NCBI GenBank assembly: GCA_020631155.1 | Contig: JAHDHV010000015.1 | Location: 1-36,546 of the forward strand | Direction of reading: 5' to 3' | DNA from: Bacteroidota bacterium | Lineage (GTDB): Bacteria; Bacteroidota; Bacteroidia; Chitinophagales; UBA2359 | DNA: 36,546 nt | In this document: piece by piece, positions 1,146 to 20,822 of the stretch | Numbering within the stretch: position 1 is the stretch's first letter | How the letters are laid out: each line of letters starts with the position of its first letter | The notes under the pieces: model-generated | The model's input: only the letters and a program-made list of their open reading frames with translations | What the model was told of the DNA's origin: nothing | Databases searched by the model: none | Translations under genes and position numbers: made by a program

Positions 1146-1188
1146 AAAAGCCCATTGCTTTCTTTTTTTCTGAAAACAATGGGCTTTT
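1146..1188 (-). terminator. Rho-independent terminator after the giant gene
   Basis: AAAAGCCCATTG (1146-1157) pairs perfectly with CAATGGGCTTTT (1177-1188), giving a 12-bp stem around a 19-base loop. Read on the minus strand the stem is followed by a T-rich tract broken by single bases. It lies about 90 bases past the stop codon of the 18-kb gene. It should end that transcript and insulate the sigma factor gene further on. Read on the plus strand it would also form a stem ending in U residues. Confidence 0.85.
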
Positions 1189-1278
1189 GCCTATAAAATC
1201 ACTACTCTCTTTGTGATTTACGCTAAGATTTTGATAACAAGTGATCTTAAATCTTATGTCTTAAATCTTATATCTAAA

Positions 1279-4200
1279 TTACCGTTTAACAAATTTAGTA
1301 CTCAAGGTTTTGGTGCCATTTGTCAAAGTGACAAAATAAACACCTGCGGAGTATTGACTCGCATCTAATGTTGCTGTTTGTGTACCTGCTTTGCTGCTCA
1401 CTGATTGCTCGGCTACTAAGCGTCCGTAGGTATCGTAAATGCGAACTTGAACTTCTGTATCTGTATCAACTGTGTAGCTGATATTTACACTTTCTAATAC
1501 TGGTATTGGGTAAACATTTACTAATGTAAAGTTGCGCTCGCCTCTTGTTAAACTAATCACATTGGACTGTTTAGTTAGACCGTCAAAGTCGGTTTGGTCT
1601 AGGCGGTAGTAGTAGGTGCCTGTGGCGATGTCTTTGTCGGTATGACTATAGTTTTGGGCATCTGTTGTGGTGCCTGCGCCGTCTACTTTGGCAATTGCTT
1701 GGAATGTACTGCCATCTGTGGAGCGCATTAACGTAAAGTAATCGCTGTCTTTTTCGCTGGCGGTTGTCCATTTAAGTAAGTTGGCTGACTGTTGCACTTC
1801 GCCTGTAAAGCTGATTAATTCTACACTTACTTTTACGCAAGAGAATGGCGTTTCGCTGTAAGTCATTTCACAACCTCTGCTGTCTACAACTTTTACCTCA
1901 TAAGGCGCGCCATCTATAAATGGCCCGAATATACCAGCGTTGCCGCTGGCTACTTCTTTACCGTTAACAAAAATGGTGTAAGGTGGTACGCCGCCTTCTA
2001 CCAATATTGGTAAATCGTAGGTATCGCTGTTTGGAGAGCAAATAATAGTGGTGGTAATCGCAAGTTCAGAACTCATTAAAATGCTGGCAGTAGATTTGGT
2101 AAATACATCACAGTTGCCGTCTACATTGCTGCCAAATGGTGCGCTGGAGATTGCGGAAGAAATGTAAAGAATTTTATCCATTGGGTAAGTACCATCATTG
2201 ATAAATTCTCCAGTTTTACTGTAGCCATAAATTGTTGCATTAGCCATGTCTCCATCGGCATTATCGTGTAAAATAAAGCCGAGTTCCATGCCTTCTTCTT
2301 CAATGTGATGCCCTACTGCCTTAGCGGTTGCACTTTCACCATAACACAATTGTCCGTCTGTTTTACCACTTCCAACAATACATTCACCAGCTTCATTTAA
2401 GCCTGTGCAAATACAATGCTGCACCCCTTGTACGGTAATTCTACCACAGCTATTTGCATCTTCAATCACAAAATAGTAGCTTTCGCCACTAGCGAGTAAA
2501 TCACTGATAAATAGACCATTTTCATCTATTGTTCCAGCACCTTCTAACAATTGATAGTCACTACCGCCTGCTAATTCAAAGCTGACTTGGTATTCTTTTT
2601 CCGTTTCGCTGCAATTTTTGCTAATTGAATTTGCAATGCGAATACTTTCACCACCTACATTTACCTCTATGGCTAAAGTGGCACTTCGAGCATTTTCTTC
2701 TGCATTAACAATTTGCACATAGTAAGTTGTATTAGCAACTGGCTGTGGTATTGGTGTGATGCTTGAACCTGATGGTGGATTGGCTGGAATGGTGGCTGAT
2801 GCATCTAAGAACCAGTGGTATTGTTCGTTTTTGCTTGCACCTTCAACGCCGAGCACCACTTCTTTTTCTCCTATACAATCAATATCAGTAATGGAATAGG
2901 CTGCTAATTTTGGCGGAGCCATTGCTTCTAACACCTCAATTAATTGCGGTTCAGATAAACAGCCTCGGCTATCTCTAACTACGAGTTGATGTGTTCCTAT
3001 GGCTAATAATGCTTGATAATTGCCTTCAATGCCAAAGCCCATGCCGTTGTCAAAAGACAAGGTATAAGGCGGTACGCCATTTCGCGGTTCTACAATCACT
3101 AAACCTAAATTAATGGCTGGATCAGTTGGGTAGAGCGTAAAATCAGCAGTCACTGCTTCTTGAATAGCTATGTTTTGTACATCAGAAATACAACCATTTT
3201 CGCTGCGTAGATAAACCTCAACGTTACTAGCATCGCTTGGATTAACCGTAAAGCTGTTTTGATTCATGCTTAAATCATTGCCGTTGACATTGACGGTATA
3301 GGATGCGCTGGTATTTGGTTGAATATTGATGCTTACAAAACCTGTGGTTGGATCGGCGCAGGTTGTGGTAACAGTGAAGAATAATGGTTCATCTAACATA
3401 ACTTCTTTCACTTCGGATAAACAACCGCCTGCGCTACGCAATTGTACGGAAACGGCGGCTACTTCATTGATGTTTAAATCAAATTCATACACACCAGCTT
3501 CATCAAAACTTACGCCTCCTGTAGTGGATACTTCGTAATTTTCTCCATCATCGCTTGGCACAATGGTTAAATTAACACTGCCATCATCTTCTACACAAGA
3601 AACCAGTGCTTCAAAATCAATGGCGGCATCAGGCATAAGGGTATATTCTGCTGTTTCACAACCATTGGCATCTCTAAGTACAAAGGTTGTCGCTCTATCG
3701 CCTGCTATCTCGACACTTTCTTCTAGTGGATTAAAATGCATCCAATCTGTAGAAATTTCATAAGGAGCATCTCCACCATTTGGTGTAATAGAAAGGCTGG
3801 CCATACCTGTTTCTGCATCTACACAAGAAACGGTATAATCTACACTAAAGCCACTGCCTAATTCAACTGTAATAGCGGTGCGCTCGCTGGTACAGCCTCC
3901 TGCATTAGTTTCTTCTACATAGAAGATGTAAGTACCTGCGCCATTTACGTAAGTAGAAATATCAAGGCTTGCCATACCGAAAGTTGGTAGGCCATTGTGA
4001 GCAATTGGTTCGTTGGCATCTGCCGAAGCATACCAATTGAAAGTGCTGTAAAATTCGCCGATGGCTTCTAAGGTAGGAATATCTGCACCATCACAGACAT
4101 AGACTGTTTCGCTTGCTAAAGGAGCATAAGGTGTGCGGCTGATATTGATGATTTGCGATAATTCTTCGCTACAATCTGTTTCTCCAACTACATAGGTTAT

Positions 4201-7200
4201 CAAGTATGCACCTTCTAAACCTGTTGGGTCAAATGTATTGCCATTTACGCCTGCGCCTTGCCAGTAACCGCCTGTTGTACCAGTTATTAATTCGTCTAAA
4301 TTGATGGTGCCGTGATCGGAGCAAATGGTACCTAAAGCCTCCCATGATGGATCAACATTTTTAAATACATGGATAATTTGTCGGTCATTGCCAACACATT
4401 GCCCATCATCAACGGAGTGTGTTACATAGATTGTACCTTCTAAGCCTGTCGGGTCAAATAGATTGCCGTTGACACCTTCGCCTGACCATGTGCCATTGGT
4501 ATTTTCTGTTAATAAATATTCATTTAAATCAAACATTCCATCTGATTCACAAACATTTACTGGAGATTGCCAACTAGCATCTGGTACCATTTCTATGGCT
4601 AAGGTTAAGGTATCACTATTGGAGCAATCGCCTAAGCCTACGGTGTATACAAATTGATAGCTGCCCCATAAACCCCAAGGATTTACGTAATGGCGATCTT
4701 GTACAAATTCACCTGACCAACTGCCTCCTTCTGTGCTGCCTTCTGCTAAGTAGCCATTCAAGTCAATCATATGGTCTTCGCCACAAAGTAATGTTGGTGC
4801 AACGACTGTTGCTATCACACTGCCTCTGATTCGCAAGGTATCACTCACTGATGTTGTACAGCCTCCATTATCTACACTATAGGTAATCACCGTTTCTACT
4901 GCTTCGCCGCCTGTTGCACTTAAATCTAATAGCCCATCTGAACTTACCATTTCTCCAGACCATGTTCCGCCTGTATCTGCGCCTGCTGCTAGGAAATTGT
5001 TTAGGTCTAAGACCGCTTCACCTGCACATATCGTCCCCGGATTCAACCAATTGGCGTTGCCGCCTTGATACACCGTCAACAATATAGAGGTTCGAGCATT
5101 ACAAGCATTATTCGTAGAGGTTGGATCGTTTTCATCTACACCTACAATATAAACCACTCGAACTTTCGCGTCACCATCTGTAAATAAGCTATCTGGAAGC
5201 GCGCTAATGTTTAAGTAGTTAGAATTGCTTGGATGAATGGTTAATAATGTGCCTTGAGAATACAAGTAAAAATCACCGCCTACTGTAGTTTCAGGGCTTA
5301 ATAAACTGTAAAGTGGGAAGTTTTCTTCATTATTACACAACTCTGTTGATGCATCCTCTGAAATACCTGCTTCTACCTGATTGTAGACTGCTAGATATTG
5401 TATAAATTCATCTCTACATAAACCTTCCCCTACTGTATAGGTTACTGGGTAAGTACCTGCCCCACATATCAACGGATTAAAGTAATAGTTGCCTGAGTTG
5501 TCTGTTTCCACACAAGCACCACTAAATACACCGCCTCCACTTTCTTTTATCAGTGGGTTCAAATGTATGGATTTATCGCTACATACTGGGCTTGGGTTGT
5601 AAAAATAAGCGTCTCTAGTCGGATAAACTTCAATGTCTATGGTTAAAATATTTTCACAATCTGACGTGCCATTACTGCTACTATTGCTTTCGGTGTATTG
5701 AATCGTTAATTGCCCATTATAAACATTTGGATCAAAATTGGTAGGCTCATCAATACTTGCCGTTATCGGAGCAATAATTTCCCAAGTAGTTTCTCCGATC
5801 ACTGTTGAGGAACTCACTAGGTAGCTGGTCAAATCTACGGATTCGGCACATACACGTGCTGGACCATTCCAAAGAGAGGTGGGTGTCGCCACTACTTCTA
5901 GCTCAATACCATCTGAATCGGAGCCGCATAACTCATCTGGGCTATCTTCAAAATAGTAAATAATGGTGTAGTTGGCTGATTCATTTGGTGGAGTAAATAT
6001 GGTGCCATTGATTAGAGGTGAACCATTATAGGTTTCCCCATCTATGGCTACTACTTCAAATATACCGCCTTCGGAAGTATTATCCAGTGCGTTCATATTT
6101 CCAGTAATAAAATAATCCGTCAAATCAATACCACTTTCGCCCTCACCATAACAAACTACTGCCTCATCAGCAGCTAATTTTGCGTTGTATTGGTCAACAA
6201 TAGAGATAAAATCAGATTCCACATCAACACATCTACCATCACTTAGATTTACCGTATAGCTCACACTGTACACATTTGGATACCCCTCGCCGATGGCTGG
6301 GTTAAAGGTGCTTACTCCATCAAATACCCCTGGCGGGTTAGGTGCTACTGACCACTCGCCGCCCGTTGTGGCATTATCAGTTAGTAAACTATTCAGATCA
6401 AAAGATTGGGCTTCACCCAAACAAAGGGTTCCAGGAGATAGCCATTCTGCATCTGCTCCTTCATGAATGGTTAGTATGGCTGCTGCGCTGACATTACAAC
6501 TGCTCACCGCACTACCAAATACTGATTGGGCATCGCCTACTTGATAAGTAACTGTATAGGTACCTGCTGCTACATCAGGATCAATACTATTTCCAAAAAT
6601 AGATTCACCATCTACATAGAATGTACCGCCCGGAGTTGCATTAGCACTTAACAGCAAGGTCAAATCAATATTTTCACTATCTTGACAATAATCCAATACG
6701 GCATCTTCTGATATTTCAGCGACTACTTCTGGTCGAACATCCAATACCACCTCGCCTGTTGCCATACAACCCGCCTCATCACTAACGCTGTAAGTGATGG
6801 TATAAGTCGTTGGTTGATTCACTGTTTCTGGCAAGCTAAGGGTAATATTACTACTTCCTGTATCATCAATACTCGCATCTGATGGGCTAACACTCCACTC
6901 ATAAATGGCGTTGGCTTCGGAATTATCAAAGTCAATTGGGCTATCATCGCTACAAGTTAGATTCATGGCTGGAATAATCGGGTCAAAATCAAAGGCATTT
7001 ACCCCTAATTCAACACTACTACCTGCACAAACCATACTTGGCGGTTCGCTTGTTAATGCTGCTTCTGGTTGTGAACAATGAATAGCAAAGTAGGTATTGT
7101 CCGTCAGACCTGTTTGGTCGGTAACTATCACTTTGTAATAAGCAGATGGAATATTGATGGCTACCTGATGTAATCCTGTGGTCACTACTGTTGTTGGAGT

Positions 7201-10200
7201 AAAAGGGGAAAAATCATTGTTTCCATCGTGGCTATACCAATCAAAAGTGTAAGGTGGCACACCGCCCATACCTGTAATATCTAACACCCCACAATTTATT
7301 GCTCCACAGAAAACATATAAGTAGGATTCTTGGTCTGCTTCACATATTGGTGCGCCAATGCGAGGACCGCCAAAGCCCATACCCGCAGGAGCGGCACCAG
7401 TTTCTACATCCAAACCATCTTCGCAATTATCTATCCAAATGACTTGCTCAACAGTCTGCTCACAGACTCCATTATTTTCGCTGTATTGTATGGTGATATA
7501 CCCTTCTACTAAGTTTAGGGCGGCTGTTGCAGGGTCATAAAGCGGATTAACTGGTGTATATTCTCCTGTTAATGGGTCAAGGCTTTCGCCTAATGAGCCT
7601 GTTCCTTCCAATAATGTCCACATACCTCCGCCTGCTGTGCCGTATAAATATTCGCTAAAATTAAATGGAGTCTTACTTACTCCACACCATTCTTCAGGTG
7701 CATCTAGTGTAAATGCTGGTTGTAAAAGGACGGTTAAAATAGCTGTTCCTTCATTGTAGCAGTTTTCACTTCCTGCACTGCCTAAACTGTAAGTAATGTC
7801 AAATGTGCCAGCCTCATTAATGGTTAAAATATTGCTGCTGATAACACCTGAACCACTACCGCCTGTAATGCTAAAGTTGCCTCCTGAAACTGTTGTTGGC
7901 GTAAATAAATTATTTAAATTATACACCTCTGGCACTCCTGCAATACAAACCGTCACATCTTCTAAAGCTACTTCTGCATCTGTTACTGCATCCAATACCA
8001 AGATATTTTGAGTCAATGCCCCCTCACAAGGTTGCTCCCCAACTGTATAGGTAACCGAATAGCTACCTTCACCAACTGCTGTGGGATCGAAAGAGTAAGT
8101 TCCATCACCATCATCTGCTACACCATCGCCACTCCATATGCCTCCGCTGGTATTGGTGGCTAAATCTTCTAGGTTGATGACACTGCTATTTTCGCAAACA
8201 GGGGATGGATTCTCCCATGTGGCATCTCCACCTTCGGTAATTTCAATTACTTGCCTACCTGTATTGGTACAAATGATAGTTCCTGTGCTACTGCCATCTT
8301 CTGTAAAGGATACCGAATATTCAATCGTAATCAAACCTAAATAGCTAGATGGATCAAAAGCGGTTGCATCGGTGATGGTGCTTACTGGTAGGGGTGCGAT
8401 GACTTGCCACTCGGTAAAATGCCCTTCACTTTCAGAAGTTATATAGGTGGTCAAATCTATGGTGCCACCGTCTCGACAGAAAGAAGATGGACCGTCCCAT
8501 GCTGATTCTGGGCAGCAACTTGGAATTTCTATTTGGTATACTTCTGGTGTACATGGATTCGCTGCGCCGCCACTCACTTGGATAGGTAGCATCTGTCCCA
8601 CATTATCAGGGGTGACAATATAGGTAGATGGCGTAATGACATCATCGGGACAGGCTGGAATAAATACCGTTGTGCAATTGCCATTCTCCGCTAATACGGT
8701 GGAGGTTGTTGGCATTTCTGGAATAGGGAAAATGCTTAATTCTGTTACGGCTACGGGCGCGCAAGGCTCTGGAAATGGGCTAATATCTCCTAAGTAAGCA
8801 TAAATAATAAAGGTCTTAGGGTCACAGTCTACTGCTTTATCTTCTTCGGCAAAGGCTGCACCAGTTAATTGCGCTACAAATGGGCCGTCTCCTGTGCCAC
8901 TTAGGTCTGTAACCATAGCAGAACTATTGCCTTCAAATTCGGTTAATTCTCCACCATTGTAAGGATCAACGCTGGTATTGCCTTCTGCATAGCCAAATAC
9001 AATTTGGCTGCCTAGTGCAATGTTGTTGTTAAAGTAGGCTGTTACAGATATGGAATCTGTGGTTTCACAAATTGCGGAACCTGCCGTTTCGCTCACTGCC
9101 ACATCTTCAATGTATGGACAATCATTGCAATTTACTATTTCCACTATCTCTTGCCATGTACTCACACAATCAACTCCGTTTTCGCTAAAAGTTTCGCTTA
9201 ATTGAACACTTACACTGCCTAGACCTGTTGGGGTAAATGCACTGCCATCACTCGCAACGGTTGCTGGCCCTGATAAGACCGTCCATTCGCGAACAGGGCC
9301 ACCATCGGTTGCATAAGTATCGTTGGTACTGGTTAAATAATCATTTAAATCATAAACAATCACATTGCCTTCTAAATCTTTTTCACATAAAGAAAATGGT
9401 AGGTCAAAAGAAGCATCAGGCTGTTCAATAATGGTCAATATCGCGGTATTGCTATCTACGCAATCGCCACCGTTGGGATCGTATCCTACGGTATATTCAA
9501 TCTCGACAATAATTGGGAAATCGCTATTCTGCTCATAGCTTAAAATATCGCCGCTAATTGAGCCATTGCCACTGGTAAAGCCACCGCTACCAATGGTAAA
9601 AATACCACCGGGAGTTGTAATGCCATCTGTAAATAAGGCAGTTAGGTCAAATTGGCCATCACCGCCACAGACTGTTGCATCATCTATTGCAGCATTAACG
9701 GACAGGTCTATACAAATTTGTTTTTCTAACTCTTGAACACAGTTTGGATAACCAACTTCTACTTTTACCAAAATACATAAAGGAAAATCGGCTGGATTGT
9801 TAATGTCTATAACAGGACTGCCATTACTAATTGCATCGGCGTTGTAATCTGTAATTGCATCCATCGGGTTGAAAGTTGCACTACCTGTTCCATCACCGAT
9901 ATTACCACCTGAACCACTATTATTGCCATCATTTAAATCATTCACCCCGTAGCCTATCCAGTTAATAAAGAAATCTTCTTCATCTACTGTGCCATCTGGG
10001 TCAAAAGTAGGTTCTAAATTTTCCCATAATAATAAAATATTATCTATATCATCCAGTGTCAAACTTGCATCTTCCCCATCTATACACATAGCTGTAGGGG
10101 CAAAAAATGCAGGGTCTAAAGTTGGATAAATTGTTACAATTTGGTCGGTACAAACAATACAATTATCCTTACATTCTTCACTATTTGCATCATTTTGACA

Positions 10201-13200
10201 ATTAGGATCATTCGGATTTTGGTAATTTGGTTCATTACCATATTCAATACAGTAAGTAACCGTATGTTGACCAGGGCCGGCCCAGAAGGGATCAAAAGTA
10301 GCTGTGCCATCGCCATTGTCTACTAAACCACTACCCGATAAACTACCGTTTGGTGCAGGAGTACCATCAAAATACCACTCCCCTATTCTATCCCCTTGAT
10401 AGGCTGCCTCAAAAATAGAAGCATCAAAGAGTGGATTTGGTGGGTCATCGGTGCAGTAAATACCGTCTAGTCCTGTAAAGGCTGGCTCAGGCTCATTACA
10501 GCTACCATTTATCACATGACTACAACCTGCGTCATCGGTAATGGTTACTGACCAAGGCTGGCCATCAACGACTCGGATGCTAATGGTCTCGCCTAATGCG
10601 GCGGTACCTGAGCTTTCTCCTGCGCCGTCACTCACTCCACCAGACAATTGCCAGTTGTAATTCGCGCTAATGTTGTGTTCTGTTAGAAAATCGGCAACGC
10701 TCTGTCCGCCTATGTCATAGGCACTTGGTGCGCCACCGCCATTGAAGGTAATACCTACCAAAAATTCGCTATCTGTACCATCAGTGCCATTGTTTGTACA
10801 TTGACAAAAATCACTGGTCACATCTATGGAATCTAACAAAATAAATGGTTGGAAAGAGGTTTCATCTAAACAACTAGCATCATTGATAACAGCAGTCGGG
10901 CCGTTATCCCAAACAGTACCCACCATATACCAAATGGTATTGGTTGGATAAGTGCCATCATTGTTGATGACTACTTGCGGAATTACTGGATTATTTACAT
11001 TAATATTATCCGTAATATAGCTATCAATGGCTGCTGGAATATTGATATATGGGTTATAATTAGGATTTCCACTAATGAAAATTCCATAAGCGCCCAAGCC
11101 ATCGCCATCATCATCAGGTAGTACTACATTGCCCTCTGGTACCACATCGGCGGTAAAGGAGCCATCAGCACAAATGATGTTGTTATCTAAATTTATATCC
11201 TGAGCCTCCGCACAAGTCTCACATGGAAACGCATCTATATTGACCACTTCTTGCCAAGTATGGCTACACTCCACTCCATTTTCACTAAAAGTCTCTGTCA
11301 TAGATACCAATACCTCTCCTGTACCTGTTGGGTCAAAGTCCGTTCCATCTGGATTCAGCGTTGCAGCACCAGATACAACTGTCCAAACTCTATCAGGACC
11401 GCCACGAGTAGAATATAAATTATCTGTACTGGTCAAGTAATCATTGAGGTCGTAGGTAATATTATTACCTGTAGGGTCTAATTCACAGAAGCTAGTCGGC
11501 AAGTCAAAAGCTGCATCAGGTTGTTCTATGATGGTTAAGGTTACTGTTACTGCATCACCACAACCATTGGCATCATCAAATGGTGGAATACCGACAGTAT
11601 AAGTGACCTCTACCTCAATTGGAAATGAATCGTCAGCTATATAGGTGAGTATATCGCCGCTAACTGTACCTGTATTTACCGTAAATGTTCCGCCTAATGT
11701 GGTTACGCCATCAATCCATAAAGCGGTTAAATCAAATTGACCGCCTGATGCTTCACAAACCGTAGCAGGATTAATGGTTGCATCAACTTGGTCTATCACC
11801 TCAATCAAATGCGTTTCACATTGCTGACAAGCTCCCTCACCAATACAGTAAGTTACTGCATTTAAACCAATATTTGCCTGTGCTGGATCAAAGGCAAAAC
11901 CACTAGGACAGGTTGGATCAACAATTACCCCTGTACCAGACCAGTCGTAAGGTGTAGTTGGATTAGTAGGGGCTACATCTGGCTCAAGGCAAATAGGAGC
12001 ATCTGTCACACAAACGGGCGTGGTAGGAGTCCAACTTGGATCGCCTGCTTCTAGGATGCTCAAATATTGTGTCCAACTAAAAGTACATTCGGGATTATTG
12101 GCATCCGCAGGAATGATTTCGGTATAAGTAATCGTATAATCTCCTGCCCCTAAGCCCAATAAATCAATAGAATAATCTGTTCCAACGGCAACACTTCCAC
12201 CATTAATAAATACCTCGCCATTGGCTAAGTTTTCATTTTCCAAAAAGTTAGAAATATTTTGTGGAAAATCTCCATCATCAATACATGCTGTCTCTGGCAT
12301 ATCAAAACTAAAGGCTGGAACGTCTATAATCGTGATTGTTGCAAGGGCAAAATCAAAACATTGACCTCCAACATCGGGATCACCTATGGTATAGTTCACC
12401 GTGTATTGACCGGGTTCAGGATAAGTTAAAATATCCCCTTCTACAGTTGCCGCTGTGCCATTAGGGACAAATGTAAAAATACCGCCTTCTGTTGTTGTTC
12501 CCGGTATAAACAAGCTGGTCAAATCAAATTGCCCATCTTCATCAAAACATGCTGTGTAGTCACTGTTAATCGTTGCATCTACTTGTTCTAATACTTCAAT
12601 CAATAAAGACATACTTGCCGTACATCCCTCATCTGTATTGATAGTATAGGTTATGGTATAGGTACCAGGAGTAGAAGAATTAAAAATAGCTGAACCATCA
12701 TTTGCGACTGGGTCTACCACTCCTTCCCCTGTAAACTCGCCATTTTGGTTACCTGTTGCGGTAAGGATTACGTTTAAACCAGGACAAACGGGATTAGGAT
12801 CAGCAGTGAAAGTTGGATCAAGAGCTGTTGCCGTTTCTATGATGGTTAAAATATGACATGTTTGCTCTACGCAGTCCTGTGGGCCGGTGCCATTACATGC
12901 TGGATTGGTTATTGTTTCTTCTAAACAAATACCTACTGTACCTGCTGAAACAATCGTTACGAATCCTGTTGCTACATCTACTGTTGCAATTGTTGGATCC
13001 GTACTTGTCCATACTTCGGCGGCTGGTGTAGTATAAATTGGGCTGTTAATAATAGGAACGAGTACATTGCCTATTGTTCCATCCCAGCAAGCTTCCTCTG
13101 CGAGATCAAAATCTGGTTGAGGCTGTTCGCTGATATAAACAAATGCACTGCCCGGCGGAACTGGATTACAGGCATCCGCATCTGTGGCTGTAAATTCATA

Positions 13201-16200
13201 ACTAACTTCATAACAACCTGGGGCTGTGTAAACCAATTCTTCTCCAACAATTGAACCTGTTGCGCCTCCACTTACATAAGTATAGGTACCACCTTCTGAT
13301 GCGCCAGGGAAAAGTGAAATAATGCTGACACTCCCAGAAGCAGAAACCGAACATTCGATGTGTAAATCCGTTGGCGTACCAATGCTTGGCTGTTCTTGTA
13401 CTTCTATAGATAAAGACATCGTAGCGGTACAACCTTCACCACTATTTACGGTATAAGTTACTGTATAAATACCGGGAGTAGTGGAATTAAAAATAGCTGT
13501 CCCATCATTTGGTGTGGCATCGGTTACTCCTTCGCCTGTAAACTCGCCATTTTGATCACCTGTTGCGGTTAAAACAACATCTACGCCTTGACAAACAGGA
13601 TTTGGAACAGCCGTAAAAGTTGGATCAAGGGCAGTTCCCGTTTCTACAATGGTTAAAGTATGACAGCTTTCCTCTACACAATCTTGTGGCCCTGTAGCAT
13701 TACAAACTGGGTTTGTGATCGTTTCTTCTAAACAAATATCCACTGTACCTGCCGAAACAATGGTCACCACGCCTGTAGCTGCATCTACCGTTGCTACGGC
13801 GGTATTGGAACTTGTCCATACTTCGGCGGCGGCGGTAGTATATTCTGGGCTGTTAATGATTGGTGTTAAGGTATTGCCTGCGGTGCCATCCCAACAAACT
13901 TCTTCCGCTAAATCAAAGCTTGGTTGTGGTTCTTCACTTACATAAACAAATGCGCTGCCTGCTGCTACTGCTACACAAGCATCGGCATCGGTAGCTGTAA
14001 ATTCATAACTAATTTCATAACAACCTGCGGCAGTATATACCAATTCTCCACCAACAATTGAACCCGTTGCGCCACCACTGACATAAGTATAGGTGCCACC
14101 TTCGGAAGCTCCGGGGAAAAGAGAGGCAATGCTGACACTTCCAGAAGCGGAAATCGAACATTCTACATGTAAATCAGTTGGCGTGCCAATGGTAGGTTGC
14201 TCTTGCACTTCTATGGATAAAGACATAGTAGCGGTACAACCTTCACCACTATTTACGGTATAAGTTACTGTATAAATACCGGGAGTAGTGGAATTAAAAA
14301 TAGCTGTTCCATCATTTGGTGTGGCATCGGTTACTCCTTCGCCTGTAAACTCGCCATTCTGATCGCCTGTTGCTGTTAAAACAACATCTACACCTTGACA
14401 AACAGGGTTTGGAACAGCCGTAAAAGTTGGATCAAGGGCAGTTCCTGTTTCTATAATGGTTACTGTATGACAACTTTCTTCTACACAATCTTGTGGACCA
14501 GTAGCATTACAAGCTGGGTTTGTGATCGTTTCTTCTAAACAAATATCCACTGTACCTGCTGCAACAATGGTCACCACGCCTGTAGCTGCATCTACCGTTG
14601 CTACGGCAGTATTGGAACTTGTCCATACTTCGGCGGCGGCGGTAGTATACTCTGGGCTGTTGATGATTGGCGTTAAGGTATTGCCTGCGGTGCCGTCCCA
14701 ACAAACTTCTTCCGCTAAATCAAAGCTTGGTTGTGGTTCTTCACTTACATAAACAAATGCGCTGCCTGCTGCTACTGCTACACAAGCATCGGCATCGGTA
14801 GCTGTAAATTCATAACTAATTTCATAACAACCTGCGGCAGTATATACTAATTCTCCACCAACGATTGAACCTGTTGCGCCACCGCTAACATAAGTATAGG
14901 TGCCGCCTTCTGATGCGCCGGGGAAAAGAGAGGCAATACTGACACTTCCAGAAGCAGAAATCGAACATTCGATGTGTAAATCAGTCGGTGTGCCAATGCT
15001 TGGCTGTTCTTGTACTTCAATGGCAATAGACATAGTAGCCGTACAACCTTCACTGCTATTTACGGTATAATTTACGGTATAAATACCGGGAGTAGTGGAG
15101 TTAAAAATAGCTGTTCCATCATTTGGTGTAGCATCCGTTACCCCTTCTCCTGTAAACTCGCCATTTTGGTTGCCTGTTGCGGTGATTGTTACGTCTACTC
15201 CTGCACAAACAGGATTTGGTGTTGCGGTAATAGTTGCATCTATGGCAGCAGTCTCAACAACGGTTAAGGTATGACAGGTTTCATTAATACAATCTTGCGG
15301 TCCTGTGCCATTACATGTCGCATTGGTTATTGTTTCTTCTAAACAAATTTCCACGACACCAGCTCCAACAATAGTAACGACTCCTGTAGCGTCTACCGTA
15401 GCAACTGCTACATCGGAAGTTGACCATACCTCTGTAGCGGCGGTGATGTAATCGTAGCTATTTACCAAGGCAGTTATGGTATTACCTGCTGTTCCATCCC
15501 AACAATATTCTTCTCCTAAATCAAAACTAGGTTCAGGGCGTTCACTCACATAAACAAAGGCACTGCCTGCTGCCACTGCTGCACAAGCATCGGCATCGGT
15601 AGCGGTGAACTCATAGCTGATTTCGTAACAACCGGGAGCAGTATAAACAAAAGCTCCTCCTACAATGGAACCTGTTGCTCCTCCACTAACATAAGTATAA
15701 GTACCCCCTAAATCAGCATCAGGGAATAAAGAGCTTAAACTTACATTGCCAGAATAAGCACCATAACATTCTATATGTACATCGGTTGGTGTGCCAATGC
15801 TTGGTTGTTCTTGTACCTCAATGCCAATAGACATTGTTGCTGTACAGCCTTCTCCTGCATTAACCGTATAGGTAACTGTATAAGTACCCGGAGTTGCTGA
15901 ATTGAAAATGGCTGTTCCATCATTTGCGGTAGCATCCGTTACGCCAATACCTGTAAATTCACCGTTTTGATTGCCTGTTGCAGTTATGGTGACATCTGTA
16001 CCAGCACAAACAGGATTTGGTGTTGCGGTAATGGTTGGGTCTAAAGTGGAGGTATCAAAAATGCTTAAAGTATGGCAAGTTTCCTCTATACAATCTTGTG
16101 GACCTGTGCCATTACATGCCACATTAGTAATGGTTTCTTGTAAGCAAATATCCACTGCCCCAGCAGCGACTACGGTTACCACACCTGTAGCTGCATCAAC

Positions 16201-19200
16201 TGTTGCTACGCCAGTGGCTGAACTTGTCCAAGCTTGTGTTGCTGCGGTGGTATAAGTTGGACTGCTAACGATTGGCGTTAAGGTATTGCCTGCGGTGCCG
16301 TCCCAACAGTATTCTTCTGCCAGATCAAAACTTGGTTGTGGTTGTTCACTTACATAAACAAATGCGCTACCTGCTGCTACTGCATTACAAGTACTTACTG
16401 CAAATTCATAACTAATTTCATAGCAACCAGCAGCCGTATAAACTAAAGCACCACCAACAACGCTACCCGTTGCGCCTCCACTTACATAGGTATAAGTTCC
16501 TCCTTCATCTGCACCGGGGAATAAAGCACTTAAACTAATGCTTCCAGTTGATGAAATCGAACATTCTAAGTGAAAATCGGTAGGTGTACCGATAGTTGGT
16601 TGCTCTAAAACTTCAATGGTGGAGCAATAAGTTCGCGCACAAATATCTGTTCCAACTTCTACACAAACCGTATAAACGCCGGGAGTAGCAGGATTAAAAG
16701 AACCACTTCCATCGCCATTATCTGTTACATTATTGCCTGCTTGTGCATACCATTCTACAATATCACCTTCATTTCCAGCACCTGTATATGCGGTCACTTC
16801 TGCAATGGCATCTAATGTTAAATCAATAGCGGCATCACCTTCACAGGCAATTGCTGCTAGGGCAAATGTTGGATCAATAGATGGGTAAATTTCTATGATT
16901 TCATATAAACAATAGCCATGACAAGGATCGTCTTCATCTGGAGTATCATCAATGCAATATTGAATGAAAAAGACTCCAGCATTGGCATTAGTTACTGTTT
17001 GTGGGTCAACCGTTAAAGTTCCATCTCCATTATCTGTAAAACCTGTAGTGGTAGTAATAGTCAAGCCTTCATCCGTATAAACGGTATAAGTACCAATCAC
17101 ATCATCAGGGCTGCTACCATCGGCTGGTGGAATACCATAAGGATTTGCATCAATAAACCCACGAGAATCGTAGATAATAAACTCATCGTCAGAGGTACAA
17201 ATCGGCGATTGCCAACCCGTAAGAGAAGCGGTACAAGGAGGCGGTGTACATTCAATGATCGCAATATACTCTGTATGTGTGGTCATTGGGCAAGTTGTTC
17301 CCGGTGGGTCGTCAGAGGTGAAAGTAATGGAACAAATAGTGCCTTCTGCAACGGCTGTTGGATCAACAACCCCTGCTGCGGTAATTAAACCTGCACAATT
17401 AGAAGTCCATGTTCCTGTTCCTTGTACATTTGGGTCTTCCAAATAATTGTTCATATCCAGCAAATTGGTAGCCTCTTCATCAGAGCAGATGAAACTTGGG
17501 CTATCCCAATAAGGATTTGGCAAGAAGCGAACAGTTAAAGTACCCGTATCTTGAGTATCACAACCATCGTTATCATTGACCGAATCATCGCCTCCTGTTG
17601 TATCGTCATTTACACCGGGGGTATTAATTTGGTAAGACATTTGGAAAGTACCACTTTGAGTTCCAGAACCATGCGCTGTAGGTAAGTCAGCAATATCATC
17701 AATAAACAAAATATGGTTACCATCAACGCTACCTGTGCCAGAACCGCCATACTGTGTAAAAGTACCGCCAACATCTGTTGGGTTTAGTGTGTTACTACTA
17801 AACATATGCGTAAGGTCTATATAAGCAGGGAGTTCTGTGATACAAACTTCCTCATCTGTAATAATAGCTGTAGTAGTTTCTTTTACTGTAATGGTTTCGC
17901 AGTGCGTTTCTCTACATCCAGCCAAGCCAACATCTGCACAAATAGTATAGACACCGGGGATAGGATCACCACCTTGAATCGGGACATTAAAAATAGCTGT
18001 ACCATCGCCATTATCTGTTACCCCATTACTTGTGCCAGCAGTACCAGAACCATTATTTTCATTCCAAACAATTACATCACCTAAAGTAAGGCCTGTAGGC
18101 AAATCTCCAGCCAAAGGTGGATTATCCAAAGCAAGGTTTATACTAGCCGTTGCTCCACCTGCTTCCTCACAAATACAAATCGGCAAAGTGAAAGTAGGGT
18201 CAAAGGATGGATTTTCTAAAGGCACTGTAACAGTTACAGGAGCACAAGGATTGCCAGAACCGCCATGAATGGTTACCGAAGTAGAAGCTCCCACTTGATC
18301 TAAATGCACAAACTCTGGGTCTACCACCATATTAGGACATTCAGGCTCAAAGCGTGCGATACAGCCCTCATAAGTAACTGTTATGGTATTGTGATCTGCT
18401 GGCTCAGGCCAAACGGTAATGACATCCGATACAAATGGATGACAACCATTTGCTAACCCTAAATTATCTGCAACAGCTTCGTCTAAAAATGAATAAACGA
18501 CCCTTTGTTCTGGTTCACATCCACCACCATGAGGAGGTAAAGTAACAAGGCTAAGTAATTCATAGTCACATTCTACTTGATTACCTGTTGTACCTCCATG
18601 GTCTGTTGCAGGACCATCTACAATTACAACGCCGGTAGTCAAGTAAGGATTAGATGGAAAAGACCCTGGTGTACTATCCCATCCAAATAATACTAAATCC
18701 TGATCAAAAGGAGCACCACTACAATCGGGGTCTACAAAGTCACGCAGTTGTTGACTTACTGAAACCCCCAGCCAAAATGCCTCCCCGTCACAAACATCAT
18801 CCTTAGCAGGATTCAGATCAATTAATAAATCGGAGCTAGTAACCGTACATTCTACATCATAAGTTACGGTAACACAACTTACAGCAAAAGTGCCATTAGT
18901 AACTGGGGAAGTTAGTGGAATGGTAGGAGTAACAGTTGGTCCAATCTGTTGCTCATCATCATTGAGCAGCGTATCACAACAATCATAATTACAACGACTA
19001 CCTCTATCATCTTCCCATGCTTCAAAACTGAGAGTAGTACTTTGGGCACAGCCTTCAAAAACGATCTCATTGTAATTTCGGGTGCCTGTACCTCCATCGG
19101 CTGTAAAGCAAGTACCACCCAAAAGAACTGTAAATTCTTCATTTCCTATTTCTCCACTGTCCAAACAGCTTCCATAATTAATTGCTGTTACCCTTATCAC

Positions 19201-19314
19201 CTGATCACATTGGCAAACAGGGCATTGTGCTTGTGCTTGTTGATGCGTAATTAATAGCTGTGCTATAAGAGCTATTAGTATTACTACAAAATGTGTAAAA
19301 GTTGCTTTTTTCAT
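1279..19314 (-). CDS. Giant T9SS-secreted multidomain surface protein (6011 residues), probable adhesin
   Basis: One uninterrupted frame encodes 6011 residues. Residues 1-29 form a signal peptide: basic MKKA, then a hydrophobic core, then AQA before Q30-C31. Residues about 30-900 hold a cysteine-containing N-terminal region and Ig-like modules. Residues 906-2244 hold five tandem repeats (265, 267, 269, 269 and 269 residues). Residues about 2245-5820 hold diverged modules built on themes such as GxWSGxGV and GxYxVTYTV, each usually with a cysteine near its start. Two paralogous blocks lie at about 2505-2696 and 3209-3399. An acidic DDDGDG stretch near residue 2735 could bind calcium. Residues about 5829-5925 are FN3-like (WTTASEKDSDYF, then YYYRLDQTDFDG). 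Residues about 5930-6011 are a T9SS type A sorting domain, with YPIP where most family members have YPNP, then VRIYDTYGRLV and a C-terminal KFVKR. The protein is therefore expected to cross the outer membrane by T9SS and be anchored or released outside. An adhesion, gliding or matrix role is inferred from architecture; no enzyme domain is seen. Confidence 0.93.
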   Translation of the reverse strand: MKKATFTHFVVILIALIAQLLITHQQAQAQCPVCQCDQVIRVTAINYGSCLDSGEIGNEEFTVLLGGTCFTADGGTGTRNYNEIVFEGCAQSTTLSFEAWEDDRGSRCNYDCCDTLLNDDEQQIGPTVTPTIPLTSPVTNGTFAVSCVTVTYDVECTVTSSDLLIDLNPAKDDVCDGEAFWLGVSVSQQLRDFVDPDCSGAPFDQDLVLFGWDSTPGSFPSNPYLTTGVVIVDGPATDHGGTTGNQVECDYELLSLVTLPPHGGGCEPEQRVVYSFLDEAVADNLGLANGCHPFVSDVITVWPEPADHNTITVTYEGCIARFEPECPNMVVDPEFVHLDQVGASTSVTIHGGSGNPCAPVTVTVPLENPSFDPTFTLPICICEEAGGATASINLALDNPPLAGDLPTGLTLGDVIVWNENNGSGTAGTSNGVTDNGDGTAIFNVPIQGGDPIPGVYTICADVGLAGCRETHCETITVKETTTAIITDEEVCITELPAYIDLTHMFSSNTLNPTDVGGTFTQYGGSGTGSVDGNHILFIDDIADLPTAHGSGTQSGTFQMSYQINTPGVNDDTTGGDDSVNDNDGCDTQDTGTLTVRFLPNPYWDSPSFICSDEEATNLLDMNNYLEDPNVQGTGTWTSNCAGLITAAGVVDPTAVAEGTICSITFTSDDPPGTTCPMTTHTEYIAIIECTPPPCTASLTGWQSPICTSDDEFIIYDSRGFIDANPYGIPPADGSSPDDVIGTYTVYTDEGLTITTTTGFTDNGDGTLTVDPQTVTNANAGVFFIQYCIDDTPDEDDPCHGYCLYEIIEIYPSIDPTFALAAIACEGDAAIDLTLDAIAEVTAYTGAGNEGDIVEWYAQAGNNVTDNGDGSGSFNPATPGVYTVCVEVGTDICARTYCSTIEVLEQPTIGTPTDFHLECSISSTGSISLSALFPGADEGGTYTYVSGGATGSVVGGALVYTAAGCYEISYEFAVSTCNAVAAGSAFVYVSEQPQPSFDLAEEYCWDGTAGNTLTPIVSSPTYTTAATQAWTSSATGVATVDAATGVVTVVAAGAVDICLQETITNVACNGTGPQDCIEETCHTLSIFDTSTLDPTITATPNPVCAGTDVTITATGNQNGEFTGIGVTDATANDGTAIFNSATPGTYTVTYTVNAGEGCTATMSIGIEVQEQPSIGTPTDVHIECYGAYSGNVSLSSLFPDADLGGTYTYVSGGATGSIVGGAFVYTAPGCYEISYEFTATDADACAAVAAGSAFVYVSERPEPSFDLGEEYCWDGTAGNTITALVNSYDYITAATEVWSTSDVAVATVDATGVVTIVGAGVVEICLEETITNATCNGTGPQDCINETCHTLTVVETAAIDATITATPNPVCAGVDVTITATGNQNGEFTGEGVTDATPNDGTAIFNSTTPGIYTVNYTVNSSEGCTATMSIAIEVQEQPSIGTPTDLHIECSISASGSVSIASLFPGASEGGTYTYVSGGATGSIVGGELVYTAAGCYEISYEFTATDADACVAVAAGSAFVYVSEEPQPSFDLAEEVCWDGTAGNTLTPIINSPEYTTAAAEVWTSSNTAVATVDAATGVVTIVAAGTVDICLEETITNPACNATGPQDCVEESCHTVTIIETGTALDPTFTAVPNPVCQGVDVVLTATGDQNGEFTGEGVTDATPNDGTAIFNSTTPGIYTVTYTVNSGEGCTATMSLSIEVQEQPTIGTPTDLHVECSISASGSVSIASLFPGASEGGTYTYVSGGATGSIVGGELVYTAAGCYEISYEFTATDADACVAVAAGSAFVYVSEEPQPSFDLAEEVCWDGTAGNTLTPIINSPEYTTAAAEVWTSSNTAVATVDAATGVVTIVSAGTVDICLEETITNPVCNATGPQDCVEESCHTLTIVETGTALDPTFTAVPNPVCQGVDVVLTATGDQNGEFTGEGVTDATPNDGTAIFNSTTPGIYTVTYTVNSGEGCTATMSLSIEVQEQPSIGTPTDLHIECSVSASGSVSIISLFPGASEGGTYTYVSGGATGSIVGEELVYTAPGCYEVSYEFTATDADACNPVPPGSAFVYISEQPQPDFDLAEEACWDGTIGNVLVPIINSPIYTTPAAEVWTSTDPTIATVDVATGFVTIVSAGTVGICLEETITNPACNGTGPQDCVEQTCHILTIIETATALDPTFTADPNPVCPGLNVILTATGNQNGEFTGEGVVDPVANDGSAIFNSSTPGTYTITYTINTDEGCTASMSLLIEVLEQVDATINSDYTACFDEDGQFDLTSLFIPGTTTEGGIFTFVPNGTAATVEGDILTYPEPGQYTVNYTIGDPDVGGQCFDFALATITIIDVPAFSFDMPETACIDDGDFPQNISNFLENENLANGEVFINGGSVAVGTDYSIDLLGLGAGDYTITYTEIIPADANNPECTFSWTQYLSILEAGDPSWTPTTPVCVTDAPICLEPDVAPTNPTTPYDWSGTGVIVDPTCPSGFAFDPAQANIGLNAVTYCIGEGACQQCETHLIEVIDQVDATINPATVCEASGGQFDLTALWIDGVTTLGGTFTVNTGTVSGDILTYIADDSFPIEVEVTYTVGIPPFDDANGCGDAVTVTLTIIEQPDAAFDLPTSFCELDPTGNNITYDLNDYLTSTDNLYSTRGGPDRVWTVVSGAATLNPDGTDFDPTGTGEVLVSMTETFSENGVECSHTWQEVVNIDAFPCETCAEAQDINLDNNIICADGSFTADVVPEGNVVLPDDDGDGLGAYGIFISGNPNYNPYINIPAAIDSYITDNINVNNPVIPQVVINNDGTYPTNTIWYMVGTVWDNGPTAVINDASCLDETSFQPFILLDSIDVTSDFCQCTNNGTDGTDSEFLVGITFNGGGAPSAYDIGGQSVADFLTEHNISANYNWQLSGGVSDGAGESSGTAALGETISIRVVDGQPWSVTITDDAGCSHVINGSCNEPEPAFTGLDGIYCTDDPPNPLFDASIFEAAYQGDRIGEWYFDGTPAPNGSLSGSGLVDNGDGTATFDPFWAGPGQHTVTYCIEYGNEPNYQNPNDPNCQNDANSEECKDNCIVCTDQIVTIYPTLDPAFFAPTAMCIDGEDASLTLDDIDNILLLWENLEPTFDPDGTVDEEDFFINWIGYGVNDLNDGNNSGSGGNIGDGTGSATFNPMDAITDYNADAISNGSPVIDINNPADFPLCILVKVEVGYPNCVQELEKQICIDLSVNAAIDDATVCGGDGQFDLTALFTDGITTPGGIFTIGSGGFTSGNGSISGDILSYEQNSDFPIIVEIEYTVGYDPNGGDCVDSNTAILTIIEQPDASFDLPFSLCEKDLEGNVIVYDLNDYLTSTNDTYATDGGPVREWTVLSGPATVASDGSAFTPTGLGSVSVQLSETFSENGVDCVSTWQEIVEIVNCNDCPYIEDVAVSETAGSAICETTDSISVTAYFNNNIALGSQIVFGYAEGNTSVDPYNGGELTEFEGNSSAMVTDLSGTGDGPFVAQLTGAAFAEEDKAVDCDPKTFIIYAYLGDISPFPEPCAPVAVTELSIFPIPEMPTTSTVLAENGNCTTVFIPACPDDVITPSTYIVTPDNVGQMLPIQVSGGAANPCTPEVYQIEIPSCCPESAWDGPSSFCRDGGTIDLTTYITSESEGHFTEWQVIAPLPVSTITDATAFDPSSYLGLITIEYSVSFTEDGSSTGTIICTNTGRQVIEITEGGDATWENPSPVCENSSVINLEDLATNTSGGIWSGDGVADDGDGTYSFDPTAVGEGSYSVTYTVGEQPCEGALTQNILVLDAVTDAEVALEDVTVCIAGVPEVYNLNNLFTPTTVSGGNFSITGGSGSGVISSNILTINEAGTFDITYSLGSAGSENCYNEGTAILTVLLQPAFTLDAPEEWCGVSKTPFNFSEYLYGTAGGGMWTLLEGTGSLGESLDPLTGEYTPVNPLYDPATAALNLVEGYITIQYSENNGVCEQTVEQVIWIDNCEDGLDVETGAAPAGMGFGGPRIGAPICEADQESYLYVFCGAINCGVLDITGMGGVPPYTFDWYSHDGNNDFSPFTPTTVVTTGLHQVAINIPSAYYKVIVTDQTGLTDNTYFAIHCSQPEAALTSEPPSMVCAGSSVELGVNAFDFDPIIPAMNLTCSDDSPIDFDNSEANAIYEWSVSPSDASIDDTGSSNITLSLPETVNQPTTYTITYSVSDEAGCMATGEVVLDVRPEVVAEISEDAVLDYCQDSENIDLTLLLSANATPGGTFYVDGESIFGNSIDPDVAAGTYTVTYQVGDAQSVFGSAVSSCNVSAAAILTIHEGADAEWLSPGTLCLGEAQSFDLNSLLTDNATTGGEWSVAPNPPGVFDGVSTFNPAIGEGYPNVYSVSYTVNLSDGRCVDVESDFISIVDQYNAKLAADEAVVCYGEGESGIDLTDYFITGNMNALDNTSEGGIFEVVAIDGETYNGSPLINGTIFTPPNESANYTIIYYFEDSPDELCGSDSDGIELEVVATPTSLWNGPARVCAESVDLTSYLVSSSTVIGETTWEIIAPITASIDEPTNFDPNVYNGQLTIQYTESNSSSNGTSDCENILTIDIEVYPTRDAYFYNPSPVCSDKSIHLNPLIKESGGGVFSGACVETDNSGNYYFNPLICGAGTYPVTYTVGEGLCRDEFIQYLAVYNQVEAGISEDASTELCNNEENFPLYSLLSPETTVGGDFYLYSQGTLLTIHPSNSNYLNISALPDSLFTDGDAKVRVVYIVGVDENDPTSTNNACNARTSILLTVYQGGNANWLNPGTICAGEAVLDLNNFLAAGADTGGTWSGEMVSSDGLLDLSATGGEAVETVITYSVDNGGCTTSVSDTLRIRGSVIATVVAPTLLCGEDHMIDLNGYLAEGSTEGGSWSGEFVQDRHYVNPWGLWGSYQFVYTVGLGDCSNSDTLTLAIEMVPDASWQSPVNVCESDGMFDLNEYLLTENTNGTWSGEGVNGNLFDPTGLEGTIYVTHSVDDGQCVGNDRQIIHVFKNVDPSWEALGTICSDHGTINLDELITGTTGGYWQGAGVNGNTFDPTGLEGAYLITYVVGETDCSEELSQIINISRTPYAPLASETVYVCDGADIPTLEAIGEFYSTFNWYASADANEPIAHNGLPTFGMASLDISTYVNGAGTYIFYVEETNAGGCTSERTAITVELGSGFSVDYTVSCVDAETGMASLSITPNGGDAPYEISTDWMHFNPLEESVEIAGDRATTFVLRDANGCETAEYTLMPDAAIDFEALVSCVEDDGSVNLTIVPSDDGENYEVSTTGGVSFDEAGVYEFDLNINEVAAVSVQLRSAGGCLSEVKEVMLDEPLFFTVTTTCADPTTGFVSINIQPNTSASYTVNVNGNDLSMNQNSFTVNPSDASNVEVYLRSENGCISDVQNIAIQEAVTADFTLYPTDPAINLGLVIVEPRNGVPPYTLSFDNGMGFGIEGNYQALLAIGTHQLVVRDSRGCLSEPQLIEVLEAMAPPKLAAYSITDIDCIGEKEVVLGVEGASKNEQYHWFLDASATIPANPPSGSSITPIPQPVANTTYYVQIVNAEENARSATLAIEVNVGGESIRIANSISKNCSETEKEYQVSFELAGGSDYQLLEGAGTIDENGLFISDLLASGESYYFVIEDANSCGRITVQGVQHCICTGLNEAGECIVGSGKTDGQLCYGESATAKAVGHHIEEEGMELGFILHDNADGDMANATIYGYSKTGEFINDGTYPMDKILYISSAISSAPFGSNVDGNCDVFTKSTASILMSSELAITTTIICSPNSDTYDLPILVEGGVPPYTIFVNGKEVASGNAGIFGPFIDGAPYEVKVVDSRGCEMTYSETPFSCVKVSVELISFTGEVQQSANLLKWTTASEKDSDYFTLMRSTDGSTFQAIAKVDGAGTTTDAQNYSHTDKDIATGTYYYRLDQTDFDGLTKQSNVISLTRGERNFTLVNVYPIPVLESVNISYTVDTDTEVQVRIYDTYGRLVAEQSVSSKAGTQTATLDASQYSAGVYFVTLTNGTKTLSTKFVKR
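9110..9710 (-). repeat. Paralogous block Y inside the giant gene
   Basis: This encodes about residues 3209-3399. Landmarks in order are GQFDLTALFTDGITTPGG, IIEQPDASFDLP, VYDLNDYLTST, and SENGVDCVSTWQEIVEI followed by a CNDC cluster. Block X about 2.1 kb away encodes the same order of landmarks with many substitutions. The pair shows an older, non-tandem duplication of a module pair, distinct from the young tandem array at 12583-16599. Confidence 0.75.
11210..11800 (-). repeat. Paralogous block X inside the giant gene
   Basis: This encodes about residues 2505-2696, with landmarks GQFDLTALWIDGVTTLGG, IIEQPDAAFDLP, TYDLNDYLTST and SENGVECSHTWQEVVNI, then a CETC cluster. It is the partner of block Y at 9110-9710. 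DNA identity is clearly lower than between the tandem repeat units, so this copy is older. Confidence 0.75.
12583..16599 (-). repeat. Five tandem roughly 800-bp coding repeats (265-269 residues each)
   Basis: Units run in translation order: 16599-15805, 15804-15004, 15003-14197, 14196-13390 and 13389-12583. Each begins with P(T/S)IGTPTD and carries three modules. The first has SGGATGS and GCYEISYEF. The second has CWDGTAGN and the Big2-like VATVDAATGVVTI. The third has PNPVC, GEFTGEGV and EGCTATMS. Units three and four are almost identical at DNA level; for example 13715-13945 and 14522-14752 match nearly base for base at an offset of 807. Units one and five are the most diverged. All units keep the reading frame. 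The pattern fits expansion by unequal crossing-over or gene conversion. Confidence 0.95.
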
Positions 19315-20357
19315 AATGCTTTTTTATTTAATTATGCTATGTAGAGAATATCATAAATAAAAATAAATATTATTTTCAGTAAAAAAAAAGAACAGAGTTG
19401 CTGAGGTAGCAATTAAAAGCTTAGAGTTGGAAAAAAATTTTACAAAAATTCATCTAATAGGAGAACAGGAGAGTCTTTAATGATAGGTTCATTAAAACTT
19501 TTGAGCAAAGTATTTAAAATACCTTTTGTTAAAAAACCTACAACATTACTTATACAAGTATATTTATCTATTTAGGGTGAAAAGTAGCATTTTTTATTTT
19601 GGTATCCAACCAAATTGACAATTCTTTTTTAATCAGGTATAACTATCTTTCTTTTTTTGCAAAAAAATGATACAATATTTCTTGACAATTCTTTGTTATG
19701 TTTTCCATGCTACACTTGACAATGGTATATTAAGGATATAGTTGACATTACTCCCAATACTTTAATTTTAACATTGCTTTTTGGCTATTTAGCTGTTAGA
19801 AATCAGCGACTAAAGCTCATAAACTGGTAATAATCAATTGTTTCTAAGTTTTCCAATGAAGCTAATTTATTGATTATCAAATATTTATAAAAACAACAAC
19901 GACTAAACTCTTCGTTACACAAATTATTAAAAAAGAAAACCGCCATAAAAAAATGCCTAGTCACAAATCCCCAATCTACGAATCAACGCCCTGCACAGTG
20001 ATAATTTAATCAACGTTTTTGAATGGAAAGAAAAGTCTAATGTACCACTATCAAGACAACTATAATTGTATTTTTATTTTAATCTAAATATAATCATTCT
20101 AATCTTTATTAAAATCTCTTTTTCGCTTTTTATTCAAAGTTCAAATACTAAAATCTCCATCTAATTAGCTAATAATCAATACTTTATAAGACATTCTCTT
20201 TCAAATTTTAAGCTACAAAAATAACAGCTATCCTCTAATACATTTCATTTAAACAAATAAGCATAAAAAATGGGTAGCATTTTTACCTAAGCAAAAACAC
20301 TACCCATTTCATTTAAAAGATAGATTTATAAAAATAGCAATCTTATAGAGTCAAATT
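19315..20357. other. 1-kb AT-rich gene-free region between rplQ and the giant gene
   Basis: No credible gene lies here. The region holds the terminator after rplQ (20268-20309) and a repeat relative at 19773-19806 (TTGGCTATTTAGCTGTTAGA). A degraded palindrome relative lies near 19900-19918, and a CACAAATCCCCAATCTACGA-type repeat lies near 19971. Four TTGACA hexamers occur on the plus strand at 19615, 19682, 19716 and 19742. The promoter of the giant gene should lie here. The only good minus-strand TAnnTTTG match is TATTTTTG at 20215-20222, some 900 bases upstream of the start and without a well-placed -33 partner, so the promoter is not assigned. Confidence 0.7.
20268..20309 (-). terminator. 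Rho-independent terminator after rplQ (end of the ribosomal cluster)
   Basis: AAATGGGTAG (20268-20277) pairs with CTACCCATTT (20300-20309) to form a 10-bp stem with a 22-base loop. On the minus strand the stem runs into a T6 tract. It lies about 50 bases beyond the rplQ stop codon, where the alpha operon would be expected to end. Confidence 0.85.
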
Positions 20358-20822
20358 CTATTCTGCATTATCTCCGCTAGGAGCTGCACCTTTATTGCCG
20401 CCACCTCTACGAGTTCTTCTTCTTCTACGTTTGCCTCCTGTCTTAGTAGTTTTTAACATACCTTCATTATAGTCTACTAACTCAATGAAGCACATTTCAG
20501 CACTATCACCTTGGCGAAAGCCAGTTTTTAAAATTCGCGTATAGCCTCCTGGACGATTTCCAATTTTTTCAGCAATATCACCGAATAACTCTTTGATGGC
20601 CTCTTTATTTTGCAAATACTTGAATACCATTCTTCTTGAATGTGTGGTATCTGTTTTAGCTCTTGTTAATAAAGGTTCAATATACTTTCTAAGAGCCTTT
20701 GCCTTAGCTAAAGTTGTGTTAATTCGCTTGTGTTGAATAAGCGAATTGGCCATATTAGACAACATTGCCTTGCGATGTGATGCTGTTCTACCTAAGTGAT
20801 TAATTTTCTTATTATGTCTCAT
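20358..20822 (-). CDS. rplQ: 50S ribosomal protein L17
   Basis: L17 binds 23S rRNA near the polypeptide exit tunnel. The start is the classic [20 protein letters not shown], and the conserved core continues through [18 protein letters not shown] and the [10 protein letters not shown] strand. At 154 residues it is longer than the enterobacterial form of about 127. The excess is a basic tail ([11 protein letters not shown]) ending in a short polar stretch, as is common in Bacteroidota. It is the last gene of the cluster: rpoA lies 191 bases upstream, across an inverted-repeat element, and a terminator follows. The ATG at 20822 is the only sensible start because the conserved N-terminus begins there. 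Confidence 0.98.

Follow-up and report, generated by a model that had tools for sequence, protein, structure and literature searches.

Lysine and arginine are scarce in a predicted 6,011-residue T9SS cargo of a Saprospiraceae-like bacterium

Several very large proteins exported by the T9SS have been described, among them SprB, the gliding adhesin of Flavobacterium johnsoniae, which is a T9SS cargo of 669 kDa (PMC9143113), and GhpA of Aureispira, a protein of 5,898 residues that forms heptameric, prey-catching hooks (PMC13319060, PMC11205867), while RemA is a gliding adhesin of the type A class (PMC10202324, PMC9143113). Because of SprB and GhpA, both the size and the T9SS export of the protein described here, a giant of 6,011 residues, have to be regarded as already known. 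For the same reason, and since the genome in question has further cargo frames of up to 5,323 residues, the initial annotation's suggestion that the protein tests how the export channel handles very long chains carries little weight.

The window, by which we mean the whole stretch of 36,546 nucleotides that was analysed, is the entire contig 314 of a 6.48 Mb genome in 666 contigs that is 91.6% complete. Compared by RpoA, it comes closest among named relatives to metagenome-assembled genomes of the Saprospiraceae/Chitinophagales, and we therefore call the source bacterium Saprospiraceae-like, inferring the exact family from these relatives. The giant gene occupies 1279–19314 on the minus strand and is an uninterrupted frame of 6011 codons with a lone stop at its end, encoding a predicted type A T9SS cargo of 630.1 kDa. 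Over its whole length GC3 stays at 0.23–0.34 against a GC1 of about 0.5, and where its tandem repeats differ it is mostly at the third codon position (14/7/69 in one comparison), as expected of a coding gene that is selected at the protein level; a frame of such length cannot plausibly have arisen by chance. The five tandem units measure 795–807 bp and, compared at an 807-bp offset, are identical over at most 152 bp in a row; a miscounted unit would alter the length of the protein by a whole unit while keeping the frame.

The initial annotation placed the gene against the ribosomal superoperon, which is correct as adjacency in the DNA, but rplQ ends at 20358, leaving 1,043 bp between it and the giant gene, and there are strong predicted intrinsic terminators on both sides, so that the link is incidental. 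One is the terminator of rplQ, between the ribosomal operon and the giant gene (20267–20310, minus strand, z −7.3), and the other is that of the giant gene itself (1148–1195, minus strand, −26.3 kcal/mol, z −6.2, folded stretch 1135–1205). Given these flanking hairpins, the giant gene is most likely a single-gene unit, transcribed on its own. A conserved ribosomal neighbourhood can be rejected, since nusA and infB come after rplQ in most relatives with a readable downstream flank (gene names read from the sequences), and in none of these relatives is a homologous giant its immediate neighbour on that side. Downstream of the giant gene, past its terminator, lies a gene for an ECF sigma factor (286–828), whose closest models are general sigma-70/ECF families, with only a superfamily model above its cut-off. 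Intergenic tracts of a heptamer type (ATAAGAT and variants) are present at 1–55, 208–285, 873–903 and 1244–1279, and the pattern TAAGATNTAAGATNTAAGAT has 262 matches in the genome and 0 when read backwards.

The protein starts with a putative Sec signal peptide, MKKATFTHFVVILIALIAQLLITHQQAQAQ, that is clear by eye in the translation (residues 1–29, 19228–19314, minus strand), with cleavage expected near AQA/Q and without a lipobox leucine. It ends in a type A T9SS sorting domain or CTD (Por_Secre_tail, residues 5934–6009, 1288–1515, minus strand), which matches PF18962 and TIGR04183 with E about 1e-13 and 57.9 bits against a cut-off of 27; of the type B models, TIGR04131 was not listed and PF13585 scored 21.7–27.0 bits against a cut-off of 27, so that type A is the best assignment. 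The unbroken frame, the signal peptide and the type A sorting domain had all been noted in the initial annotation; the frame is borne out here by the single terminal stop and the coding signal, and the sorting domain by matches above cut-off, while the signal peptide is likewise visible on inspection of the N-terminus. The genome also encodes SprA and PorU (NF033707, 1384 bits), and a type A CTD search of it gives at least 150 matches, a gene content that makes it very likely that the giant is exported by the T9SS. Further cargo frames in the genome encode 5,323, 3,755, 3,637 and 3,401 residues, and a type B cargo frame encodes 3,752 residues. The T9SS secretome is also rich in candidate secreted proteases, with six C25 domains including PorU (five besides PorU) and 17 M43 matches.

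Between signal peptide and sorting domain the protein is modular. An N-terminal region of about 870 residues lies upstream of the tandem units, and its first part (residues 31–334, 18313–19224, minus strand), delimited by locus comparisons and modelled at low confidence (pLDDT 60), is the presumed distal tip. A Pfam search of the tip gave no match and residues 31–170, the first 140 of the mature protein, had no detectable relative among the loci compared; with no Pfam match and a poor model of the tip, we assign the giant no ligand. Then follow five tandem units of 265–269 residues (residues 903–2241, 12592–16608, minus strand), defined by repeats and alignment. Structure prediction, which had been proposed at the outset, was run on one 269-residue repeat (17 sequences, pLDDT 86, pTM 0.67) and gave three beta-sandwiches, of which the middle one resembles, as modelled, Big_2 (7quz, Z 10.1, rmsd 2.0 over 83 residues) and the third a PKD domain (1l0q, Z 8.7, 73 residues). 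Foldseek likens the modelled repeat to cadherin and Ig tandems, with intimin-like tandems also among the likenesses; since these are common folds, they indicate the architecture of a stalk and not a function. Some 2,800 residues of diverged, Cys-paired Ig/PKD-like modules come next, as judged from self-similarity and cysteine pairs (residues 2242–5060, 4135–12591, minus strand), and then an Ig_7 domain (PF19081, CHU_C-associated Ig-like; residues 5062–5151, 3862–4131, minus strand, E 4.5e-14). The protein has 194 cysteines, with 50 neighbouring pairs spaced 42–82 residues apart, a spacing that we take to mean roughly one disulphide in each module, giving about 50 or more Cys-paired beta-sandwich modules in all. 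The Ig-like modules of the initial annotation are thereby supported by Pfam (Ig_7, Big_2) and by the repeat model, but its FN3-like domain, which corresponds to a beta domain just before the sorting domain (residues 5831–5933, 1516–1824, minus strand), is not, as the last 300 residues have no Pfam fn3 match at E ≤ 5.

Homologous tandem units occur in a giant of 6,177 residues (G009:C4), at about 35% identity, and in the frames of G002:C691, at about 50% identity. Both share the tandem units and the Lys/Arg depletion with our protein, and the former also the C-terminal end, including the pre-CTD domain and CTD (43–47% identity); both differ in having another N-terminus and in not adjoining the ribosomal operon. 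When the N-terminal 2,251 residues were compared with 61 genomes, 8 had matches at E ≤ 1e-10, our own genome counted, and with residues 25–330 matches were found in 9 of 299 genomes of the order, again counting our own and mostly in just the last third of the query, while a contig search with residues 1–900 found no relative. These distributions point to a family that is patchily held and fast-changing. The G009:C4 giant also contains three 302-residue units that score identically and seem to be exact tandem copies (L062 13304–15994), which could be due to recent duplication or to an assembly effect.

The giant contains only 91 lysines and arginines (1.5%) against 838 aspartates and glutamates, for a net charge of about −747. 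A stretch of 1,377 residues (residues 1260–2636, 11407–15537, minus strand) is free of both basic residues in the translation, a feature not mentioned in the initial annotation; when the protein was shuffled 2,000 times, no such run exceeded 738 residues. Lysine stands at 0.67% and arginine at 0.85%, against 3.4% and 4.7% expected from position-specific base composition, so that both are about 5-fold below expectation, with Asn, Asp, Glu and Gln at or above it. Mutational bias can thus be rejected as the cause. Among 130 differences between the tandem repeats, counts that gene conversion and shared ancestry keep from being fully independent, just one involves Lys or Arg, against about 14 expected from one-step neighbours, and selection therefore seems to remove these residues from the giant.

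Since a shortage of basic residues might be shared by other long cargoes, we compared 101 T9SS cargoes from 14 Bacteroidota genomes, comprising 62 type A cargoes of our own genome, type B cargoes from it and from further Bacteroidota genomes, and the G009 giant. These were picked by hand over the length range, with long ones included on purpose, and are phylogenetically non-independent, so that the p-values that follow overstate the case. Length correlates negatively with Lys+Arg content (rho −0.61, p 2e-11), as it still does when our own genome is left out (rho −0.55, n 37, p 5e-4), less strongly with His (rho −0.43), and hardly with Asp+Glu (rho −0.12, p 0.25). Median Lys+Arg is 1.24% in cargoes of at least 1900 residues against 5.0% in those under 1000; in the long ones Lys is reduced to 0.26x, Arg to 0.33x and His to 0.43x, and the R/K ratio climbs from 0.76 to 0.90. 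Cys, Thr, Gly and Pro increase with length, which makes length in part a proxy for module class. One type B giant of 5,436 residues (L253 100–16410, G335) is almost devoid of charged residues, with 0.43% Lys+Arg (Lys 0.26, Arg 0.17), 3.0% Asp+Glu and a longest Lys/Arg-free run of 2,545 residues. It and two other low-acid giants, L290 and L281, are depleted as well, so acidity does not drive the loss, and binding of polyanion or calcium type is weakened as a cause, given that Asp+Glu is flat with length and stands at 2–3% in some depleted giants. There are also long cargoes that are not strongly depleted, namely L173 (1,941 residues, 6.0% Lys+Arg) and L260 (3,176 residues, 5.6%). The 5,323-residue cargo of our own genome (L080 190–16161, G000:C490) combines an N-terminal M43 domain of mirolysin/ulilysin type with Ig_7 domains and contains a Lys/Arg-free run of 1,041 residues. 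Literature searches for Lys/Arg-poor T9SS giants returned no description, which is weak evidence because subscription papers lay outside their coverage, and we found no published explanation for the shortage in long exported proteins.

Resistance to secreted proteases of the Lys/Arg type is the leading, if unproven, explanation. Characterised gingipains, ulilysin and mirolysin cut at Arg or Lys, a specificity that we carry over from these relatives to the C25 and M43 proteases of this genome, and it is the non-enzymatic stalks that are depleted, whereas most of the secreted C25 and M43 enzymes escape the depletion. Protease resistance fits the observations best, yet it does not cover the loss of histidine, which is no target of such proteases, and a transport cost may act as well. 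It is quite possible, although we put it forward tentatively, that long T9SS surface proteins of Bacteroidota are in general actively selected for the lack of Lys and Arg, which would leave their stalks uncut by Lys/Arg-specific proteases and nearly missed by tryptic proteomics.

A constraint on export, under which positive charges would retard the chain in SecYEG or the T9SS at a cost rising with chain length, is a less likely account. Arginine transport is rate-limiting for Sec, with lysine slowing it less (PMC9110029), and the depletion does scale with length and affects Lys, Arg and His but not Asp or Glu. The Sec model, however, predicts replacement of Arg by Lys, whereas the R/K ratio rises and the loss of Lys at least equals that of Arg; the long cargoes that lack strong depletion argue against it too. 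In addition SprA, which has about 2,500 residues and is exported by Sec, keeps Lys+Arg near 10–11% in our own genome and in one relative, so that the passage of a long chain through Sec is unlikely to be the cause by itself and a simple Sec cost is weakened. The depletion might also have been inherited, with no present function, from an ancestral module class poor in Lys and Arg, in favour of which it is concentrated in Ig/PKD-type stalks and common to the homologous G002 and G009 repeats. This is doubtful, as just one of the 130 differences between repeats involves Lys or Arg, and as low-acid giants from other families with a quite different composition are depleted too.

Taking protease resistance as the preferred explanation, we think it probable, though far from assured, that the giant is a T9SS-exported adhesin or stalk of the cell surface, from which selection has removed Lys and Arg, probably against proteases. 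In our reading it is an adhesive stalk, anchored at its C-terminus and stiffened by disulphides, and we infer its surface location, its orientation, its adhesion and the protease reason. The Sec signal would carry the chain to the periplasm, where the type A CTD would engage PorV/SprA and PorU would probably exchange it for a lipopolysaccharide anchor, an exchange that would leave the C-terminus at the cell, with the unmatched N-terminus at the distal end. The long stalk would consist of some 50 or more Ig/PKD/Big-like modules pinned by disulphides and could lengthen or shorten as units of about 267 residues are duplicated in tandem and in frame, and removal by selection of Lys, Arg and, less strongly, His over most of its length would most probably prevent cutting by the bacterium's own secreted gingipain-like C25 and ulilysin/mirolysin-like M43 proteases, or by those of its neighbours. 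Adhesion is proposed by analogy, as no ligand-binding domain was found.

Tryptic peptides of 7–30 residues cover only 525 of the 6,011 residues, and 183 in the first 5,300, so the surface proteomics suggested in the initial annotation would largely fail with trypsin and would need another protease. If the compositional rule holds, it would suggest why Bacteroidota giants could be under-seen in tryptic proteomes, it would point to a simple way in which degraders and predators that secrete proteases protect themselves, and it could serve as a design guide for protease-resistant extracellular fibres. It would then be a general rule tying chain length, export and protease armour, of which we found no description, and it sets up a clean test between Sec/T9SS transport cost and protease resistance.

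How the giant compares with the described systems also bears on its role. With SprB it shares size, repetitiveness and T9SS export, and with the type A adhesins RemA and RemZ its CTD class and hence an expected PorV route; together with the CHU_C-associated Ig_7 module, these likenesses would suit a gliding or biofilm adhesin that, displayed on the cell or moved along it, attaches to surfaces or matrix. We nevertheless consider this improbable, since the CTD of SprB is of type B, the SprB repeat (PF13573) is not confirmed in the giant (E 0.016, 15.3 bits against a cut-off of 28), no lectin domain was found in it, and the window ORFs scanned include no SprF/PorP-like gene. The giant is also several times larger than RemA or RemZ. 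GhpA, like the giant, is a very large T9SS cargo and a chain of beta-sandwich modules from the Saprospiraceae group, with the bacterial family probably alike (PMC13319060, PMC11205867), and the modelled repeat aligns with the cryo-EM structure of the GhpA base (9fly_A, Z 9.3, 237 residues, rmsd 6.6). A grappling hook for prey, in which giants are bundled into a cell-catching filament, is nonetheless more improbable still, as many unrelated Ig and cadherin tandems score within about 1 of that Z, the giant matches no PDB chain by sequence at E ≤ 0.1 (its C-terminal part giving chance matches alone, and only the solved base of GhpA being in the structure library), GhpA is absent among the weak profile matches, Pfam at E ≤ 0.1 finds in the giant no DUF11, the module of the GhpA-related GhlA, and PF05943, which may miss the Bacteroidota type, finds no VipB/TssC in this incomplete genome. 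As a presumably anchored and adhesive stalk, the giant itself belongs to a kind of protein represented by these systems, and what is unexpected about it is its composition.
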